This document shows positions 50,339 through 63,449 of a stretch of DNA of 64,000 nucleotides, in pieces. The stretch's first letter is position 1; every line of letters starts with the position of its first letter. The stretch is from NCBI RefSeq assembly GCF_002999335.1, contig NW_020312036.1, positions 434,001-498,000 of the forward strand. The letters run 5' to 3'. The notes under the pieces were generated by a model, which saw only the letters and a program-made list of their open reading frames with translations, ran no database searches and was not told where the DNA came from. The translations under genes were made by a program, and so were the position numbers. This stretch comes from Cyclospora cayetanensis. Taxonomy: Eukaryota > Apicomplexa > Conoidasida > Eucoccidiorida > Eimeriidae.

Positions 50339-53300
50339 ATGCCTGCAGTACTGTCCAAGCCGGAGGGGCCCCCGGGGGGGTTGGGGGCTTTAGGGGCCCC
50401 TGAGACCCTTCGGGGCCCCAAAGAGAATGAATCTCCCCTTCGCTTCTTTTGCCGCATTGCCCTCGAGGGGTCCACGAAGGCTCGACTGGCCTTAGGCTCT
50501 TTGGCGCTTGTTGTGTGCTCCGCATGCAACATGCTGACTCCTTACATCCTGGGAACTTGTGTGGACTCTGCCTACACGGGAGAGGGGCTCCTTAGGGGCC
50601 CCTTGCGGGGGCCCCTCGCCCTCGGGCCCCTAGCGGGGCCCCAGGGCAAACAGCTGGCTCTCGCCGGAGGAATTTTTTTCCTCGGTGCACTTGGCAGCGC
50701 GTGTAGGACGGAGCAACTGGAACGTGCGGAGGAGGAGATCCTCACGAGGCTTCGGTGAGCCAGTGCTTAAGCCAGCCCTTAGGAGCGGGTTGTGTGTGGA
50801 CGCACTGGGCGGATGGCGGCTTTTTAGGGGCCTGTCTCTAGTTGAATCGCATGACGATCCAATCCACGTGCTCGTCTCTTCGAGTGCCAGTCTCTTTGCA
50901 TCCTCTATGTGCGAGGCACACCCTCTCTTTGGAAGAAAAAACCAAATCTACACGCCGAAGGCGCTTCTTTCGCTCCTTCAGGCTCTACTTGTTTGCACGG
51001 TGTATAACGAGCCCCCCGAGCTTCTTCACAGTGCACACCCCAGGAATACTCTGCGCGCTTCTCGGAGAGGACTGCCGGCAACTGGCCTCAGTAGTAAGCC
51101 GCGCGTTTCCCACTCTCCTTAGGTACTCCAACTCGGCTCTGGGAGGCACCGTCGCTCTTCTCCTCATCAGCAGGAAGCTCACTGCAGCCGCGCTGCTCCT
51201 TCTACCGGCAGCTGCGGCGACTGCAATCCTTGTTGCCAAGTAAGACTCCACGTGACTTTGTGGGGTGTGCCTAAGGCTCTGCTTTTAGCGGCAGGAGAGG
51301 CCGCGCGCCCTTGGACGAAGAGGGGTTTCTGCTGTGGGGGTGCCTTCACGGTTCAAGCCTGACGCTTCTTCGTCTTCTCGCTTCTGTACTGCGAGCTTCT
51401 TCCGCGCTTATTTCAGGCTGCTATTTGGGGCCTTTTTGCTTTTTAGGCGTCTAAAGCGGTTGCGAGAGGCACGCCAGACTGCAGAGGGTCGGTGGACGGA
51501 GTTCGCTCTGGACCGCCTCTACGCCCACAGCGCGGTGTACGTACACCAGCAGCAGCAGCAGGAAATTGCGCGCGCTGCTGATGTATCGCAACAGGTGTTG
51601 GCGGCTGCAGCAGCGACCTCCAGAGCGAGCGGCACCCTCATGGGGTCCTTAACGGTGGCTACAAACTTTTCGTTGCTTCTGGTGCTCTCCGCTGGAGCCA
51701 GTCTCCTCAGGAAAGGTTCTGTAGGTTTCTCCATGTCGGCATGTTTCGCATGTGTAGCAGAAAGACTTCATGTGGCGAGCTTCGGTTGTTTTGTAGTTGG
51801 TGTTGCTGTTGCTGTGGTTGGTGATCCCCCTTCTGAACGTTGCTGATGGTGGTGAAGTAGGGAGACTCGAGGAGTCTCTTCAGTCGGAGGCTTTGCAAAA
51901 GCCTCTTTTGTGCTGCCTCTCTCCTCTCCTTTGCGCCTTTCGTCCTGCGCGCTGTCTGCCTCTGCGAGAGACTCCCTTTGACGCTCCCTCCGTCCTTCTC
52001 TGCTTTTTGCAGTTTGGTTTCTTACAGCTACGACAGTTTTGCTGCCGTAATGGGTCGCTGTGCCTTCATGCTGCTTTCCCTCCTCACATGCGCTGCAGCT
52101 GACATACGGGAGTTTGACGTCCTTTGTCGCATACAGCATGATGGTGGCAGCGGGGTTCAGCGGCCTTGCGTCGCTCTCCGGCGAGTGGGCTAAAGGACGC
52201 GCAGCGGCAGAGCGTCTCTTTGCTGCTATTCAGCCCTCCCTGCAGCAGCAGCAGGAGCAGGAGCAGCAGGAAAAAGAAGTGCTCTCCTTAGAAGGACTCA
52301 AGGGCGAGATAGAATTCCACAACGTCTCCTACTTCTACGACCAGGATGCGGCGACAGCAGAAGCAGCAGCGGGAAGCAGCACTAGCAACAGCAATAGCAA
52401 CAGCAACAGCAGCAACAGCAGCAACAGAAACAGCAACAGAAACAGCAGCAGCCGATGCGGAGAGGGCATAGGCGGGATCGTGGATTTGTCCTTCCGTCTC
52501 CTTCCCGGGGAGCTGCTGGGCATAGCAGGTCCTTCAGGTGCTGGAAAGAGCACCATCATGAAGCTGCTCACTAAGGAACTAAGACCGCAAAAGGGGTGTA
52601 TCACCGTAGACGGTACGGCTACGCATGACGTGCTGCTGCACACTATCTGCTGTTGCTTATGACCCCGTCCCACCTCTCCCCTCCCTGCCCGTCCTTGCAT
52701 CGTGGCTGCAAACGGCGCGCGGTGTGGAGGGGGAAAGGGCTGTTTTGGCCTTCTTGTGTTGTGGTGCTACGGCAGGGATCGACCTGGAGAAAATTCCCAC
52801 CGGCATGTGGCTGCGTCGCGTGCTGGGAGTAGTGAGCGACAGAAGCAGCAAACTGTTTGGGAGCCTCAGCATCCGAGAGAACATTCAGTATGCAGCGTGG
52901 GAACCAGCCCCCACTGCTTGCGCCGCTGCTGCTGCAGCGCAAGCAGCGGAAGCGGCGGCACAGAGGGCAAACTGCTTGGGCTTTGTTCAGCATCTGCCTC
53001 GGGGTATGGAGACGCTTGTAGGGGGTTCGGCAGGCTGCTGCTGCAGCAGCGGGGAGCAGCAGCGACTCGACATCGCGCGATCGCTATACAAGCAGCCTCG
53101 TATTCTGCTGCTGGACGAGCCCTCTAGTGCCCTAGACGCGGAGAGCGAGCGTTTCTTCACCGAGGCCCTCACACAAGCCATGCAGCAACAAGACAAACAA
53201 GAGCAGCAAGAGCAGCAACAAGAGCAGCAACAAGAGCAGCAACAAGAGCAACAAGAGCAGCAACAAGAGCAGAAACAAGAGCAGAAACAAGAGCAGCAAC

Positions 53301-53482
53301 AGCAACAGCGCTTGCTGTCTTCACTTCTGATTGCTCACAGCCCCACGGTGTTGAAATGTGCCTCTAGGCTTTTGGTTCTGCGCAGAGGGACAGTAGTCGA
53401 GTCGGGGACCTTCGAGCAGTTGTTGCAGGCAAAGGGAACTCTGCATGCGCTACTCTCAGGAGACCTACACGACAAATTCTGA
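50339..53482 (+). CDS. ABCB-type half ABC transporter, five exons
   Basis: Exons: 50339-50754, 50982-51239, 51417-51720, 52099-52612 and 52776-53482; 732 residues, phases consistent. One transmembrane domain (hydrophobic segments about 55-80, 110-130, 180-225, 300-322, 330-350) precedes one nucleotide-binding domain, the half-transporter layout of the mitochondrial/ABCB10 group. Family stretches: GEDCRQLASVVSRAF, LTYGSLTSFVAYSMM, Walker A GPSGAGKST (470-478), Walker B ILLLDEP with catalytic Glu612, D-loop SALDAE, H-loop His685. Atypical features: Asp519 replaces the Q-loop Gln, and the signature reads CSSGE (587-591) instead of LSGGQ. Insertions: GC-palindrome-derived GPLRGPLALGPLAGP after the first helix, an Asn/Ser run between the first NBD strands, and a Glu/Gln run of about 45 residues between D-loop and H-loop. 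The exon 3 donor (TCT|GTAGGT) is the least certain. Substrate unknown; localisation inferred only from family. Confidence 0.85.
53180..53312. repeat. CAACAAGAGCAG repeat encoding Glu/Gln run inside the ATPase domain
   Basis: Units of 12 bp (GAGCAGCAACAA-like), about ten copies, read as EQQQ repeats between the D-loop and H-loop of the ABC transporter. Confidence 0.9.
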
Positions 53483-54033: not shown

Positions 54034-57000
54034 CTACTTTGGGGAGGCAGTACTACTAGGCAGTGTATCCCTGTTGTACTCGAGAAGCTGCACGTCGATG
54101 CCTGAGTTGCTGAAACGGCCCAAAGGCCTCCAGGGGAGCAAAGCCTCCGCCCTGAAGGACCGCCCCGCTGCAGACAAACTCGCAGAAAGCCCCAGACACA
54201 CACGCCCCCTTGTTTGTGCGAAAACAAAAATAGCCCTGCATGCACGCCAGGGATGAGGAGGGAGTCGACATATCTACGAGGTGTTTGCTTCTCGAAAATG
54301 CAGCACGCGCGAACCGTTCCCTGCGTGGGCTGCACTCGTGCGGACGGCCCACAGGGCTGTCGCGGGGGCTCTCTTAAGGAGCAGTGCAAAGAAGCAGCGT
54401 ACAGCGCGTAGACGGGCAGACAAAGTCGGGAAGACAACTTGAGAAACAGAAAATCACGGGTTAGTGCGAGGGGTATTTAGAAAGACGGCTCGGAAACCAG
54501 AGATGCTAGAGATACCGGCGGAGAAGGCTCTTTTGGCCTGAAAGTCAGAAGTCATTTTTTACGGCAGCGCCACTATTTCTGCAGTAATGAGGGGGACATA
54601 CGGGCAATGAGGTAGGCAGAGCGGATGTTTGGGTTGGATGCGATCTCCTTCTCGAGCCGCCTCATCGTCCTTTGTCGCTTATCTCCCCGCAAGCTCCGCA
54701 CGCCGTATGGCGCATTCGTCAACACTACAGATTGAGGAGGCAGGGCACGCAGCACCTGCACTCAGGGAGGCAGGAATGCAACAGCGCGAGGTCTCCATAC
54801 TCCACAGGCAAAAAGACCCCACATGCGCTACCCCGCACGTTCCAAAGGCGAGGCTCGCGAAGAAAACAAGGCGGACCGAGGAGATACAGATAAACGGCAA
54901 AGCAGACAGTGACACACTGTTTGCAAAGCGGCCCACGCATGCCAAGCAACTTCGACACATAAAATGCAGTCACCTCCCCATGTGCAGTGCATGCGCGCTA
55001 CCCGGAATCAACCGGCTCAGTAAGAAGAGCCGGGCAAGCATGCACAAGACCGCGAAAGGTAAATAGCTCGAGGCAGCAGGTGCTCGACTCCCTCCGCCCC
55101 TTCTTCCAAGACGAAGACACGCGGGAAAAACATAAAAAAGCTACAAAAGCCACACAAAGAGTCGACGCGCTGCGTGGCACTATCGCGTTTTGCGGCTCTT
55201 ACCGGCGAGAAGTCAGAGTGCGTCAGCGAGAGGGGACAAGGCAGACCGCCTTCTGCAAAGCCACGCGCGCACTGTATGGACACTTGACTCCAGTGCGTGC
55301 AGCTCTTACACGCCCCGTCGACAAGCACAAACGCCATCTACAGAAGCAGAAAGGTCTAACAAGAAGCGCCGCTATATCCTGGCGGCAAAAACGTAGCTCT
55401 GTGTTCCTGCAGCTCAACTGAGAACGCTGCTGCTAACTAACCATCGTCCAGTCCTTCCTCCGCCTTCATGAGTCTTGGAGACCTCAAGCGAAAAGCCTCC
55501 ACGTTTAGCTTGGCACTCTGCGAACAACGCCAGCCCCAAGTTTGCCTTTGTGAAACCGCGCTCGCAAGAGCTTTCGCAGAAACCCTCGCGAAAAACTTGT
55601 GCAAAATTTTTGGGGTCGGGTTACAACAGCGCACGCACCTCCAGCTGCTCCTTGTTATTGTCACACCCAAGAAGCCGAAGCGATCCCACCTTTGGATGGG
55701 GCCTGCAGCAACAACAGGAGCCGCATGTGAGCGTCTGTGGAGCTAAACTGTGGCTGCGTCTTGCGAGAAAGGAGGCCCTTCGCTTCACGGAACGAAGCTC
55801 CCAAGGGAGCCGCTTGTTCAGAACAGAGGCCTCAAAGGCTGCAAATCTACAGCTTCGGGCTGGATCAAGCCAGCCGAAGGTTTGAGGCTTTACAGGATAT
55901 CCAGGCAGTCAAGAAAGGAGTTGAATCGCGTCATCGAGTGGTTGGGGAACTGCGAAGAAGCAAAGACACAAAGCCCACAGCAAAGCACCAGAAGGCGGTA
56001 GAAAGCCCCTAGCCAGCCTCCCAGCAGCTAGCCAGCAGGCCACAGAACCGGAGAACTCAGAGCCTTACAAGAAAAATAAAACTATTTTTACAGGAGGTGC
56101 TGCTTACGGGTGTGGGTGTCGTGCTGCCTGCGTGTCTATTTGGCTAGCTGGTCACGTAAGCTGATTCCCGGCCTAGGAGACTCGACTGTTTGTGCCCTGC
56201 TTGGCAAGCTAGCTCCCCCGTTCGCTTGCTTCGTGTGCAGAGGCTAGCTAGAGAGCTCGCTCACACTGAAAAAGGGAAAGCTCCTGCGGGGGGAGTTTGG
56301 GAGGCTTCCAGCAGCGATGCCCATGAGCTCCAGCAAGAGGGCGCCACTCCCACACATCGGATCGAGGACAGTGAGGCTGACAAGAAGGACAGTTTGACAC
56401 AAGCAGCAGATGTGGAGGGGCTGCCTTGTCTGGTCTCTACGATGAGCGCGTCAAGTCAAAAGAGAACGTATCGCTGCCAGGCCCAGCCCTGATGCTCCCC
56501 AATGTCTCTACATTACATGCATATGCACAGCCGGTGCCACACCCAAACATTTTCCCCGCTTTCCCCCCCGTCCCTCTGTCGCTCAATCCGGAGGCATCGA
56601 GTTGCATTGGAACGGCTACTATTGCATCAGCCGCTCAAAGAAGGCAGCGCTTCAAGGAGGGGAAACGGCAGCGCAGAAAAACCGTGAGAAGTAGAGCAGT
56701 TCGGAGGGACGGAAAAAGCGGACTGATAGGCTCATGGGTGCAAGTACAGATTTACGCGAGGCCACCTAGAGCGGCACGGATCCCCGGGCAATCGCAACCG
56801 CACAGGCCATGCATGCGCTTTGACAGGAGAATGGCGAAGAGACAGAGGTACGACAGGCACGCGTGGCATAGGGGAAGAAGGGCAGACTGGAACGGCACGA
56901 CGGAAACAAGAGCCAGCAGCTCGCCATCCGCTCGCCTGCACTGACCTATCTTGCAGGCTAAGTCGGTTCAGTATTGGCGAAAGAAAGACGGCTGCTGCTG

Positions 57001-59942
57001 CCAAAGTCTCCCTAAGGGGGGCAGTGCCCTGCCGGACGCGCCACAGGCGCGGCGTTAGTGGCCCCGAAGCAGCCACACTTACCTGCAGCAGCACCCGCAT
57101 AAGTTGCAGCAGTTTGGAATAGCCGGAGGCAAGCAGGCACAAGCGATGCAGAGGCTGCTGCGGCAGCAAGGCCATCTGCAAGGAGGGGGCTGCCTCAACT
57201 GGACAGCAGTACGCGTTGAAAAAGCAGCAATCAGCCGTAGCAGCGCGAGAAGCTTAGCCGTAGCAGCGCAATTAGCCGTAGCAGCGCAATTAGCCGTAGT
57301 AACGCAATTAGCCGTAGCAGCGCAATTAGCCGTAGGAGCGCAATTAGCCGTAGGAGCGCAATTAGCCGTAGCAGTGCAAGGCGGACATAGCAGATGTTGT
57401 GTCGGAGAAGAACGTGAATTTTTGACGCGCCTGAACCAGCTGCGATGCACGGAGGCCGTAAACAAGCGCAGATAAGAGCGAGACCATCTTTGAGAGGCGC
57501 ACACACAGCCTACCGAAAATACAGGGGATAACCCGAACAACGGTGACAGAGGCCGCCTCGCCTCTTGTGCCCAGCGGAAGGATTGCAACAAAAGTTTAGC
57601 GGTGGTGGCTAAGCAACATCGCAGAAAAAGAGACAAACTGCAAGAGATGGAAGGGGAGGGTGCGAGGCTAAGGACTCTCGACAGCCACTGACAAATCAGC
57701 ACACACAGCGGACCATGAAGACATAGGCGACGCGAAGGATAGCGTCTCAGAGGCGCATAGACAGGCCGAGAAAAAAGGCAGAAGGGAGCCGTAAGAAGCC
57801 TTGCTCGAGAGTGCTCGGAGAAGTCTGTCCAACGGGCATGTCTGAATGGGGATGCAGAGAGGAATTTCGGCACTGCCGCAGCAACAAGGGGCAGCAATAA
57901 AGTGCTGTTTGCACTGGCCACGAAAATTCTCGACACGCGGCCGTTTTGGCAAGACCACCGCTGCCAGCGCGTGGGCGCAACGGAGGAGCACGTGAGGTAC
58001 ATCAGCATCACGGTATGCACAACAGCAGCAGCAAGAGCAGCAAGCTACCTCCTCTCTTTTGCATGGAGCTGGGAAGTGCATCGGGCAGCTCTGCATGCTG
58101 CAGCAAGCGCCTTCTTCTCTCCTTCAAGCCGTCCAGGACCGCGGAGGAGACCAGGGAGCGGCTATACAGCCGAGACGCGTTAGAGGAAGCCTGATAAACG
58201 GTGGCAGCAGTAAGAGCAGGAGCACCAGATGGAGAAAAAGCAGTAGTTGCCATCACAGCCCGCACTGCAACAGCACTGGTTAATACAACTGCTGCTTCTA
58301 CTTCTTCTGGAACGCCTGTCTCAGCTCCCCCGTCCGTGCTTCTATCTATTTTCCGGAGAAAAATACAAACGACAGGAGTGCTCGTGACTGCGTGTGCATC
58401 AGCAGGTGCTGCCTACTGCGATGATCGGCTCTTCAAAGGCCGCGGAGAAGGCCACATACTTTTCCCTAGAGGCAGCAGCAGCAAGCACTGTTCGAGCAGC
58501 AACCTAGCCTTGCAGACAGTCGCCTCTGCATCTGTGCAGCAATAAAGGCAGCGCAACTCCGGTGATGGATATATCTCCCGCATTCAAAGGCCGTACCAGG
58601 GCAGGGATGCCGCGCCTCTCATAAGTTCTTTCTCTCCCCTAAGCAGCAGCACAACAGGAGCAGCAGAGACCAACAGCAGCTTCGTGGGTAAGCGAAAGGC
58701 TGCGCAAGAGCAGCACACGATGCAGCCTCAACAGACCCCCACACCCTCAAGAGGAAAGACCGCACCAAGCGCAGCAGCAGCAGAAGCAGCAGCAGCAGAA
58801 GCAGCAGCAGCAGAAGCAGCAGCAGAAGCAGCAGCAGCAGAAGCAGCAGCAGCATCATGGACACCTACCGGGCAGGAAAGGGATGCCCAACGGCAACTCG
58901 AACTTCTTCGGCAATTCGACTGCGGCACAGCATCCATGAAGAACAAGAAGAACGTCAAGGAGCTGTGTCAGATGCCGCTACCCATGAAGCACCTTCTGCG
59001 AAAGGTTTGTGCGTTGCCGCACGCTCTGTGTGCTGCAACAAAGCAACAGCAGCAGCTGCTGCTGGAGCTGCTGCAGCTGCTGTGTTGCCGCAGCCAGCAG
59101 AAACGCAGCAGCCGTCCTCATACGCACCTCCGGAGAGCAATATTCCACAGGAGCTCAGGGGGACCCCTGACTGCTATGCCGCCCTCTTGTACATCCACGG
59201 AGAGCACGGAGGAGGCTGCCGCTGCGGCATCCGCTGCAGCTGCCGCTGCAGTTGCTGCTGCAGAGTCGCCCCTTGCTGCAGCTTCAGAAGCAGCGGCCAA
59301 GTGCGACTGCGGAGATAACAGTAATAGCTGCAACTCCCGAGCTAGCAGCGACTCGACCCCCGGGCTGCATACACAGAACATGGTTAGGGTGCGCGAATCT
59401 TCGGCTTCTTCGTTTGCAGCGGCAAAATTAGAAAAAACCGTCGCAGCGGCCCTTCTGGTACTGTTGTGCCTGCATTGCTGCTGCTGTTGCTGCTGCTGGT
59501 GCTGTTGCTGCTGCGCTTGCCGCCGCAGAGGAAGCAGCAGCCAATTACGCGTGCGGGTGCTGCCGTTGTGTTCAGAGAAAAGACCGACGCAGGCAGTCGC
59601 CGCTGCTGCTGTTTCCGCTGATACACGTCCTGGAAAATAATAGCGGCAAAACGGCAGACGCAACGCACCAGTCGTATATTGCTAGGGGCTTCGATTATCG
59701 CCTAAGGATTCTTCTCAACTGTATAGGACCCCCTCGGAAGACGCATCTACCTCACCTGAAGCACCCCGATGCCAAAAAAAGTCCCCCCTCGTTGCTCTTC
59801 TGGCTGCAGCAAGCATCACTGCTGGTGCTGGTGCTGCAGGAATGACTGCTGCAGGCCTTGCTGCCGCTGCAGAGCGGCCGTTGAAACACCGTGCAAGACC
59901 ATGCTGCGCTCCCAGCTGCATCTGTCTGACCGCAATCATCAT
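54034..59942 (-). CDS. THUMP/UPF0020 (RlmL-type) RNA guanine methyltransferase, thirteen exons
   Basis: Family members transfer methyl from S-adenosylmethionine to guanine N2 in rRNA. Proposed minus-strand exons: 59942-59756, 59629-59128, 58917-58867, 58638-58597, 58275-58049, 57198-56946, 56376-56265, 55949-55894, 55846-55639, 55517-55442, 55252-55203, 54755-54602 and 54167-54034; 683 residues, all GT-AG, all phases consistent. Order of motifs: Arg/Ala-rich N-terminus (targeting-like), THUMP start FCVCSPGVESLLARELQ (147-163), GGIAVRGPPELLWNIALRSR, SNASRLYSRSL, QGTAPLRETLAAAAVF, SAM motif I DPMCGSGALLLEL (426-438), LLGCDNNKEQLESAKLNV, HSDFSP, catalytic NAPYG (602-606; usually NPPY), RFSNSGIDVQLLEYNR. 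Exon 4 and the 5' ends of exons 4-6 are least certain. Bacterial RlmL methylates 23S rRNA; an organellar rRNA target is inference. It lacks the second (RlmK-like) domain. Confidence 0.78.
57233..57380. repeat. ~18-bp minisatellite in a methyltransferase intron
   Basis: About eight copies of CGCAATTAGCCGTAGCAG with single-base variants (GTAGTAA, GTAGGAG). The array lies inside the 58048-57199 intron. On the minus strand it would read as repeated Thr-Ala-Asn-Cys, but it is spliced out in the proposed model. Confidence 0.85.
58770..58858. repeat. (GCAGCAGCAGAA)n tract in a methyltransferase intron
   Basis: CAG/GAA repeats between exons 3 and 4 of the minus-strand methyltransferase. On the plus strand they would read as EAAAA repeats inside a 318-codon shadow frame. 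Confidence 0.8.
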
Positions 59943-60452
59943 TCCGCGAGGAGGAAGGCTGGGGGGAATGCGGAGGGAAAGAAGGCGGGGGCAAGGCCAG
60001 GGGCCCTAGGGGGCCCCTGGTGGACAAACCCCTTGAACCTTAAGCCTTCGAATAGACAGAAGTGCCTAGTGCCACAACGCACGAATTGCGCCTAGAAATG
60101 CAGAGAGAGCTTTCTGCTCATGGCATAGGTCTTCGCATACCAGTGTGCGGTAATGAGTGTACCTACACCGCTCAGGCGGGGTGCCAGGCCCTGCTTGCAT
60201 GCGCATCGATTTCAAAAAGTGTCACGGACCTTGAAATACACGCTCTTCCCTCTCTGTACGCCTTAAACTCACAGGAAAGCAGACATAATGATGGCCTTTC
60301 AAGTTGAAGGAGTGCACTATGGGCTTTAGAACCAGTGTACGTACACCCGGTGCCTCTGGATACAGCAGTCGCCGATTCTGGTCATGCAAGTCGCCTCGTC
60401 TGCGAGGCATCGCAGCACTCGAAGGCAAGCATTAAAGGGGACTTAAGGGTTC
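59943..60452. other. Divergent promoter region
   Basis: About 510 bp between the start of the minus-strand methyltransferase and the start of the plus-strand 998-residue protein. It contains a perfect-looking GC palindrome (GGGGCCCTAGGGGGCCCC-like) at 59999-60017. No gene seen. Confidence 0.5.
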
Positions 60453-63449
60453 ATGCAACGGCATGCTTTCTTAAACAAAGGCTCTTCAACGGGCCGAGGC
60501 TTCGCCTTCTGCCTTCGAGGAGGCGGGACCGCCCCCCTCCCCCGAGGCAAGAGCACCACAGCAGCAACCACAGCCGCACAGCTGCACCGTCCCCAGAGCA
60601 TGTGGCGACTGGCTGAAGGGAAATTTGCGACTGTCGCTGTTACTACTGCGGCCGCTGCGATCCCTGCGGTAGCTCGAACAGTCACAACGGGGGTCCCCCG
60701 GAGAGCAGCACTCCCACCAGCAGCAGTCGCAGCATCATCACCAGCACCACCAGCCAAGGCTGGTGGAGCGGCAGAAGCCGCTGCATCGGCCTCTCCAGAA
60801 AGCCCTCCCGATATATTTTTGGAGTGCCACACAGAAAGCTGCCTCCCAAGGCAGCAACACAGACAGCGCGAACGAGGTGCCATACGTATTAACTTAGAAG
60901 GGCGAAAGGGGCAGCAGCTTATCCGCTCAATCGGCGTTTTGTTGCTGCAGAGACACCGCCCTGGTTCCGTCCAGCAACAGCAACAGCAACAGCAACAGCA
61001 GGGACGCTGTGCGCGCGCGTCATGGCCGCCACTGCAGCCCTGTGGTCGTTTTTCTCGCACTCTTCGTGCAGCTGCACAGAGTGGAGAAACTCCATCTGCG
61101 GCGACAAGGAGGGCAAGTGCAGCTCGCAGCACATCGCCAGCGGAGGCAGCAGTAGCTGCTGCAGCTGATGCTCTTCCCTCCTGTCTGCCGCCAGCCATTA
61201 GAGGCGCAACTTGCAAATACGCGAATGCCATTTTGCGGGGAACACTGAAGCGGCAACACCATCAGTCTCTGAATGCTGGCTTTTCTGCAGCGCCACGTTT
61301 CCCTCTGTTGCTGGCCCTCCTAAGCGACTTGGCAGATGCAGAGCAACAACTGCAGCAGCGGAAGCAATACAGCGGCGGACCCCTCACGCGACGGCGCGGG
61401 CGGCTTCTGCAGCTCGAGCAGGAGCTGGCAGTACACCGCAGCACCTTCTTTGGACTCGAGCAGAAGCAAGACTTGGAGGGGCTCAAAGCGGCAGCTATTG
61501 CCTCCGCAGCAGTGACAGCAGCAGCAGCGGCAGGTGAACCGAATGGCAGCGCTGGCGGAAATTTGATTTCCAGATCCCTGTGCTTGCTCCTACAACAGCT
61601 TCTTCTCGACGCAGCTCCGCATGCCTCCTTAGGAGACGTAGAGAGCCTGCTGCACCTCTTCGTCAGCACTGGCCAACAGCAGCTGTTGGTGCATGCGCGC
61701 AGCGCCAGCAGCAGCAATCCTTGCCTTCCTGAGAAAGGCGGCGAAACTGCGTGGATTTTCGAAGTCTTTCAGCCGAAGAGCCTGCGGCTCTTGCTGCAGG
61801 CAGCACACCGCCAAATGAAGCAGCAGACGCAGCTGCGAAACGGAGCTGCAGCAGCAACAGATCCCCGAGATGTGCAAAGAGTCGGACGGCTAGCAGCGCT
61901 CTCTGCTGCAGCAGCACGCATTTGCAGCGAGGTGACAGCGGCCCCCGTGGCAGGCGGAGTAACACCCTCCCCCTCGGGAGGAGAGACTGCGGAGGTGGCT
62001 AGAGCAGCAACTCAGGTAGCAGCTAGCGAAGAGCTTTCGAGGCTGGCGGCTCATATTGCAGAATTAAAGCCACCAACGATCACACTAAAAGTTGCGGGAG
62101 CAGCAGCAGACCCAACTCCCCTACCAGAAGCTCCCGAGACAACCGCAGCAAAATCGGCAGAGAGCGCTTCTTCACCAGAGGCTTCAGCGGTCCTGTCTGC
62201 AGCCGTACGGAGGAGCTCTGCTGCTGCTGCTACTGCTGCTGCTGCTACTGCTGCTGCTGATGCCACCTCCCTCACTCGGCACGGAAGACGTGTCCTGAAG
62301 CGCTGCTGGCTTTCCGTCATGCTGCTGCAACAGTTGCAGCGCGAGCAGCACCTGCGGCGGCAGCTCCCAGCCGTTCCAGTGCTGCAGCAGCAGCTGCAGC
62401 TGTTGCAGAGGACTGGCGACACTCGAAAAATCCAAGGAAATCTCCTGGCGATGCCGCTGCCCGAGCTGCTGAAGCTAACCTCAGCCCTTGTGCGCATGCA
62501 GCAGCGACAGCAGGCTACAGGACCAGAGGGTGAGCGATTTCTCCCGCATCAGGCGTTCCTTACAGCGGAAGAAACAAGGCCTTCAAGCACAGCGGGAAAG
62601 GCAGATCGTGGGGTGCACCAGCTGCAGACGCAGCCGCAGACGGTGCTGCAGCTGTTGCTGCTTGCAGCGCAGGTTCTGCTCCTCAAGCTACAGCCAAGCA
62701 GCAGCCTCAACAGCCTTAACCGTACAAGCCTCAACGGCACTCCCGCCAGACATTTCGTCCGCTGCCTCGGCGCCCTAGCTCAGCTCCAACGCGCGGTAAA
62801 TAAACAACAGCAGCACGTAATGTCAGCGGCAGTGATTATAGGGCCTCTGAGCGTGGAGCTGCTGCAGCAGCTGCCGCCGCAGCACATCACGTCGTTGGTC
62901 CTTAAAGACTTCGTGAGGCTCTTTGTTGCACTGTCACACCTACTACCGGTACTGCTGCACTGCATGCAGGAGAAGCGGATATGCTCGGAGGCGGCTGCTG
63001 CGTCGCCAGCCGTAAAAGAACTCGACGCGCTGCCGTTTTCGTTGTATCGACACCTCAACACACTTCAGGAAGCCGCAACAGCACTTGTAGCCGGGCCTGA
63101 ACCCCTGCCGAGTTCTCTCCCCGCTGCTGCATTCCCCCCTCTTGCAAACGCAGCACGCCACATTCGGCAGCAGCTTTTGCTGCATCATCAGTCGCTGCGA
63201 CAGCAACAGCTAGAAGGTCAGCAAGAGGAGCAGGCACAGGAACAGCAGCACTCGCGAGAAGAGGCAGCTTTTTTGTCTCGCGCATCGCGGAGGTCCCTCG
63301 CTGCTCTCTCATCTGTCGCTACACCTCGGCACTTGCTGCAGGCTGCCGATGTTGCTGCGCTTGCGGAGGCGTACGAGCGGCTTATGGACACGGCTGGTGC
63401 TGTCGTTGCCGCCGCAGCGGACGAGCCCTCTACAACTGAAGCGATTTAA
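60453..63449 (+). CDS. Long Ala/Gln/Leu-rich helical protein, possibly organellar
   Basis: A single frame of 998 residues starts at the ATG at 60453. The N-terminal 100 residues are basic, Ala/Thr/Arg-rich and nearly free of acidic residues, as in mitochondrial or apicoplast-type targeting regions. From about 275 onward, Leu-rich helices of 30-40 residues recur (MPLPELLKLTSALVRMQQ; LQLLLLAAQVLLLKLQ; GPLSVELLQQLPPQHITSLV; DFVRLFVALSHLLPVLL). This pattern recalls the helical-repeat (HPR/OPR-like) organellar RNA-binding proteins abundant in apicomplexans. No RAP domain is visible at the C-terminus, so this is a tentative comparison. CAG/GCT tracts give Gln and Ala runs. The composition makes the open frame partly uninformative, and short introns could be hidden. 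Confidence 0.6.
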   Translation: MQRHAFLNKGSSTGRGFAFCLRGGGTAPLPRGKSTTAATTAAQLHRPQSMWRLAEGKFATVAVTTAAAAIPAVARTVTTGVPRRAALPPAAVAASSPAPPAKAGGAAEAAASASPESPPDIFLECHTESCLPRQQHRQRERGAIRINLEGRKGQQLIRSIGVLLLQRHRPGSVQQQQQQQQQQGRCARASWPPLQPCGRFSRTLRAAAQSGETPSAATRRASAARSTSPAEAAVAAAADALPSCLPPAIRGATCKYANAILRGTLKRQHHQSLNAGFSAAPRFPLLLALLSDLADAEQQLQQRKQYSGGPLTRRRGRLLQLEQELAVHRSTFFGLEQKQDLEGLKAAAIASAAVTAAAAAGEPNGSAGGNLISRSLCLLLQQLLLDAAPHASLGDVESLLHLFVSTGQQQLLVHARSASSSNPCLPEKGGETAWIFEVFQPKSLRLLLQAAHRQMKQQTQLRNGAAAATDPRDVQRVGRLAALSAAAARICSEVTAAPVAGGVTPSPSGGETAEVARAATQVAASEELSRLAAHIAELKPPTITLKVAGAAADPTPLPEAPETTAAKSAESASSPEASAVLSAAVRRSSAAAATAAAATAAADATSLTRHGRRVLKRCWLSVMLLQQLQREQHLRRQLPAVPVLQQQLQLLQRTGDTRKIQGNLLAMPLPELLKLTSALVRMQQRQQATGPEGERFLPHQAFLTAEETRPSSTAGKADRGVHQLQTQPQTVLQLLLLAAQVLLLKLQPSSSLNSLNRTSLNGTPARHFVRCLGALAQLQRAVNKQQQHVMSAAVIIGPLSVELLQQLPPQHITSLVLKDFVRLFVALSHLLPVLLHCMQEKRICSEAAAASPAVKELDALPFSLYRHLNTLQEAATALVAGPEPLPSSLPAAAFPPLANAARHIRQQLLLHHQSLRQQQLEGQQEEQAQEQQHSREEAAFLSRASRRSLAALSSVATPRHLLQAADVAALAEAYERLMDTAGAVVAAAADEPSTTEAI

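Follow-up and report, generated by a model that had tools for sequence, protein, structure and literature searches.

An intron-split gene for an RlmL-type RNA methyltransferase in Cyclospora cayetanensis

The minus strand of a 64,000-nucleotide stretch of the Cyclospora cayetanensis genome (the window; C1:434001-498000, contig NW_020312036.1, within a 43.2 Mb, 392-contig assembly) carries a split nuclear gene that encodes an RlmL-type RNA methyltransferase. We hold the existence of the gene and this enzyme class, taken together, with high confidence. The catalytic half is already annotated publicly as a 291-residue 'RNA methylase family protein' (P0001) identical to the spliced translation of the window; the N-terminal RNA-binding half is absent from that record. 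A preliminary description of this DNA, made from the sequence alone, had called the gene cryptic, which is half true, because identical residues were already public. What results is a more complete model of a gene so far annotated as a fragment, not a new kind of system.

Gene structure and its support

Reading the minus strand in three frames gives, in order, the RLY linker, APLRETLAA, DPMCGSG, GCDNN, NAPYG and NSGIDVQLLEYNR, joined at phase-matched GT-AG sites. Spliced alignment, using a script that takes public proteins as guides and permits introns in any phase, confirms the motif order and joins of the preliminary description. Its count of 13 exons and 683 residues is replaced by two models, A with 14 exons and 588 residues and B with 15 exons and 609 residues, in both of which the frame stays open between 59942 and the stop at 54034 and every intron is GT-AG. 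Model B has an extra 25-base microexon and a longer next exon; it is slightly favoured by its spliced score (565.0 versus 556.5 for model A), and residues of the solved SMU.472 chain align over the microexon stretch. Exon 1 and the microexon are the uncertain elements of the gene model.

With P0001 as guide, all 291 residues are recovered with zero mismatches and seven introns, which fixes the 3' half of the gene (56945-56377, 56264-55950, 55893-55703, 55638-55518, 55441-55253, 55202-54756 and 54601-54168). Most upstream exons are supported by two hypothetical proteins that carry N-terminal sequence, Efla_003796 of Eimeria flavescens (P0002) and ACSSS7_007468 of Eimeria intestinalis (P0003), both apparent orthologues as judged by sequence. 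The P0002 guide again recovers the first four P0001 introns and places upstream introns at 59127-58920, 58868-58700, 58674-58504, 58416-58191, 58048-57440 and 57386-57083, differing from the gene model in the first intron (59729-59502) and the last (55437-55170). The P0003 guide agrees on 59127-58920, 56945-56377, 56264-55950 and several single sites; elsewhere its path differs (introns 58868-58098 and 58048-57083, with a further departure downstream of 55893) because the P0003 record lacks or adds stretches.

The three public coccidian records each appear incomplete at a different place: P0001 lacks the N-terminal half, P0002 the NxPYG end and P0003, which reads NLPYG, most of the THUMP part. 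It is quite improbable that P0001 is nevertheless correct, with only a C-terminal protein starting at 57175 and an upstream half that is a separate gene or a remnant. The public record is annotated that way, but in E. flavescens a single protein carries the N-terminal half along with the beginning of the catalytic domain, and E. intestinalis has the RlmL_1st part together with the catalytic part through NLPYG. Furthermore, the first 31 residues of P0001, which fall within an intron of our model, are unmatched in E. flavescens, whose sequence passes straight from HNVCT to VRVAASGPL. The fragmentation by gene finders foreseen in the preliminary description is thus seen in P0001. The two long frames it pointed out also exist, running stop to stop over 58546-59640 on the plus strand and 57079-58044 on the minus strand. 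That the former, a 364-codon open frame, is the true gene and the minus-strand exons arise by chance is scarcely credible: much of its product is Ala-, Glu- and Cys-repeat, and residues 141-480 of P0002 reach a spliced score of 1004.5 on the minus strand versus a chance value of 80.5 on the plus strand. All 23 controls lie between 58 and 111, the others being the reversed sequence (58.0), one other window region (90.5) and 20 shuffled proteins (61.5-111).

The available part of the C. cayetanensis genome paper describes AUGUSTUS, SNAP and GeneMark-ES predictions (PMC4851813), and our guess is that P0001 derives from that project; the available part of its main text does not contain the word 'methyltransferase'. 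No Toxoplasma or Plasmodium orthologue is named among the matches listed in our searches (17, 23 and the best 120 of 3457, with about 8000 candidates scored per search), which does not show that these parasites lack one.

Enzyme class and catalytic motif

Assignment to the RlmL-type methyltransferases is well supported by Pfam, by PDB sequence matches and by comparing the folds of two relatives. The joined product matches UPF0020 (PF01170), as the preliminary description had anticipated, at 2.9e-13 and 50.4 bits against a cut-off of 22.3, over profile positions 1-101 of 197. The ferredoxin-like RlmL_1st domain (PF22020) scores 27.2 bits against a cut-off of 27 over only 21 of 55 positions, and reaches 31.3 bits in P0002 and 32.5 bits in P0003. 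Sequence matches in the PDB are 3LDG, 3LDU, E. coli RlmL (3V97/3V8V) and 3K0B, and the fold model of the E. flavescens protein finds its best matches among bacterial RlmL chains. The RlmL-type identity proposed earlier is thereby supported, although the THUMP domain named with it is not recovered through Pfam.

The protein has the same domain order as the RlmL module of E. coli RlmKL/YcbY (3V8V, 3V97), which is among the best fold matches, but differs in lacking the RlmK domain, in having NAPYG for NPPYG, and in its long N-terminal extension and insertions. The RlmK-containing equivalog NF008748 scores 76.1 bits against a cut-off of 466, with the match stopping at profile position 339 of 704; bacterial P0012 likewise falls below this cut-off (247.9 bits). 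Single-module bacterial relatives (3K0B, 3LDG, 3LDU and Gemmatimonadota P0012 and P0038) share domain order and conserved blocks with the window protein up to the C-terminal NGGI/NSGI block. Six such bacterial rows show 26-30% identity over proteins of 373-410 residues and have neither the long N-terminal extension nor the Ala-rich insertion, which in both Eimeria proteins, as in the window protein, follows the first RlmL_1st segment.

A tree of 71 rows combined the 3 coccidian proteins with 58 of 80 loci and 10 of 152 other fetched proteins; the 22 loci left out had no stop-free frame of >250 residues bearing a PLRETLAA-like motif. The coccidian rows are set apart by a 100/100 branch without a resolved position among the bacterial clades, and none of the rows bears a cyanobacterial name. 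The gene is apparently single-copy.

SAM (S-adenosylmethionine) motif I, DPMCGSG, is an exact match. NAPYG keeps the Asn, second Pro, Tyr and Gly and departs from strict NPPY in having Ala for the first Pro, as in P0038. Across 155 fetched proteins, a set biased toward relatives of the query, NPPYG occurs in 150, NAPYG in two (P0001, which is the same gene, and P0038), NLPYG in two (P0003 and P0037) and none of these in one (P0002, which is truncated). The preliminary description was correct that NAPY is present, but with NAPYG or NLPYG in 4 of the 155 it is a weak case of a notable departure, and on sequence grounds we regard it as a minor variant that retains the catalytic-motif Asn. We take the catalytic motif of E. 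coli RlmL to be NPPY and Asn 309 to be its Asn. Changing Asn 309 of that enzyme to Ala abolishes m2G2445, according to the available part of PMC11194073.

Probable target and compartment

By its domain architecture, the ferredoxin-like and THUMP-like RNA-binding half would present a guanosine to the Rossmann-fold domain, where SAM and the N-x-PY motif would yield N2-methylguanosine (m2G). The RlmL domain of E. coli forms m2G2445 close to the peptidyl-transferase centre and also promotes assembly of the subunit, an effect that does not depend on methylation; RlmK and RlmL occur as separate proteins in other bacteria (PMC11194073, in the part available). We infer the activity, m2G, target and compartment of the coccidian enzyme, the most likely product being m2G in organellar large-subunit rRNA. 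An organelle rRNA enzyme is the best reading because a nuclear gene copy is present in a parasite with both apicoplast and mitochondrion, the genomes of which have both been reported for C. cayetanensis (PMC4851813, in the part available). As substrate we tentatively propose a bacterial-type large-subunit rRNA from either organelle, at a little short of an even call. More tentative again is the fuller proposal that Coccidia retain an organelle-imported bacterial-type RlmL that places m2G in the peptidyl-transferase region of an organelle ribosome, either the fragmented mitochondrial one or that of the apicoplast, and aids its assembly. An alternative that we consider unlikely is a tRNA m2G methyltransferase acting at position 6 (Trm14/TrmN) or position 10 (Trm11) rather than an rRNA enzyme; the Trm14 (tRNA m2G6) equivalog NF040721 gives 44.4 bits, below its cut-off of 280. 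If organellar, the enzyme would represent a further rRNA modification step for the organelle ribosomes of the parasite, themselves drug targets; in other respects it is an ordinary housekeeping enzyme.

The N terminus is compatible with the organelle-targeting region suggested earlier: the first 60 residues contain 1 acidic and 8 basic residues in the window model, 1 and 5 in E. flavescens, and 2 and 5 in E. intestinalis. This low acidic content fits import but is no proof of it, and no part of the model is less certain than the N-terminal exon.

Several observations weigh against an organellar RlmL encoded by this gene. Organellar rRNA was not found in the assembly, which does not establish its absence; the single match of the bacterial large-subunit (LSU) model, from 2 of 793 candidates scored, is a eukaryotic LSU gene lying at the edge of contig C96. 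The THUMP profile PF02926, which the preliminary description expected to match, gives no Pfam match in the product at E <= 1 and none in the organism's own genome; of the 23 proteins listed in one of our searches, however, no more than 5 carry it. With the bacterial-type guide P0006 the spliced score reaches no more than 148.5, and the introns it places upstream of 56945 mostly disagree with the model. The coccidian guide proteins are, as far as can be told, gene predictions rather than transcripts. Finally, the target may have shifted along the long coccidian branch (2.71 changes per column).

The edge of C96 (L002, G000:C96:1-3809) holds LSU, 5.8S and 5S rRNA genes, and its eukaryotic LSU match of about 1.16 kb for a 3401-position model is probably collapsed or partial. 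The window itself gave no match with Rfam at gathering threshold or with ARAGORN. We found no literature linking UPF0020 and Apicomplexa, and papers retrieved for RlmL with apicoplast, or THUMP with Toxoplasma methyltransferase, included none on such an enzyme by title and opening of the abstract. PMC4042851 names RlmE, RsmB and KsgA homologues, and 'RlmL' does not appear in the available part of its main text.

Exons and neighbouring features

All exons lie on the minus strand. Exon 1 (59756-59942), with the start codon and a low-acidic, Ala/Arg-rich N terminus, is tentative, being placed by GT donor, phase and open frame alone in a stretch of little conservation; the Eimeria guides put the first intron at 59729-59502 and 59755-59618, neither of which equals the model's 59755-59630. 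Exon 2 (59128-59629) runs from the RlmL_1st start (FCVCSPGVESLLAREL) to GGIAVRGPPELLWNIALR and aligns to both Eimeria proteins, its 5' boundary being tentative. Both boundaries of exon 3 (58869-58919, SRIAEEVRVAVGHPFPA) are recovered with P0002, P0003 and P0006. The possible microexon of model B (58675-58699) gains score together with the longer next exon (58417-58503), which carries EKYVAFSAAFEEPIIA (E. flavescens ERFVAFSAAFDEPQVS) and starts at 58503 in model B and 58465 in model A. The THUMP-part exon with ASSNASRLYSRSLVSSAVLDGLKERRR (58049-58190) follows the E. flavescens alignment and is missing from the E. intestinalis record, and the exon GSGASKIHVLLRHNICY (57387-57439; E. flavescens PPKIHVVIRHNVCT) has a weak donor, GTCCGC.

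For the exon VSVAASGPLTPRLWRVRQGTAPLRETLAAAAVFLSPILNRLSLQD (56946-57082), the acceptor before 57082 is given by P0002 and P0003 and the donor after 56946 by all three coccidian proteins, which also match both junctions of the exon with SAM motif I, LDPMCGSG (56265-56376). Both junctions match P0001 and P0002 for FPNHSMTRFNSFLDCLDI (55894-55949) and for the exon with the acidic motif GCDNN (55639-55702), and match P0001 for SAKLNVEAFRLRSPRLMKAEEGLDD (55442-55517), EGGLPCPLSLTHSDFSP (55203-55252) and the exon with catalytic NAPYG (54602-54755). The last exon (54034-54167), with NSGIDVQLLEYNR and the stop, agrees with P0001 in its acceptor and final residue.

Four readings were dropped from the model: STDGGAETG... 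in intron 58416-58191 and MALLPQQ... at 57175-57083, both of which E. flavescens reads straight through; DAEATVCK... near 58530-58460; and MAFVLVDG... near 55337-55253, which P0001 leaves out. Intron 57386-57083 holds a tandem repeat (57227-57379; period 18, 8.2 copies, 87% matches) that keeps the long minus-strand frame open.

Some 100 kb away from the window lies a second UPF0020-type stretch (DPFCGSGGLLLEAALLLNGLPP; L001, G000:C1:331995-332069, minus strand). It scores 25.5 bits in the genome search, a piece scanned with Pfam gives 28.4 bits, and by sequence it is probably another intron-split RNA methyltransferase gene. Two plus-strand open frames flank the methyltransferase gene. The convergent one (52610-53482) matches the ABC-transporter ATPase profile (ABC_tran, 6.9e-10) and contains a long Gln/Glu repeat; the divergent one (60447-63449) spans 1000 codons and has no Pfam match at E <= 0.1.
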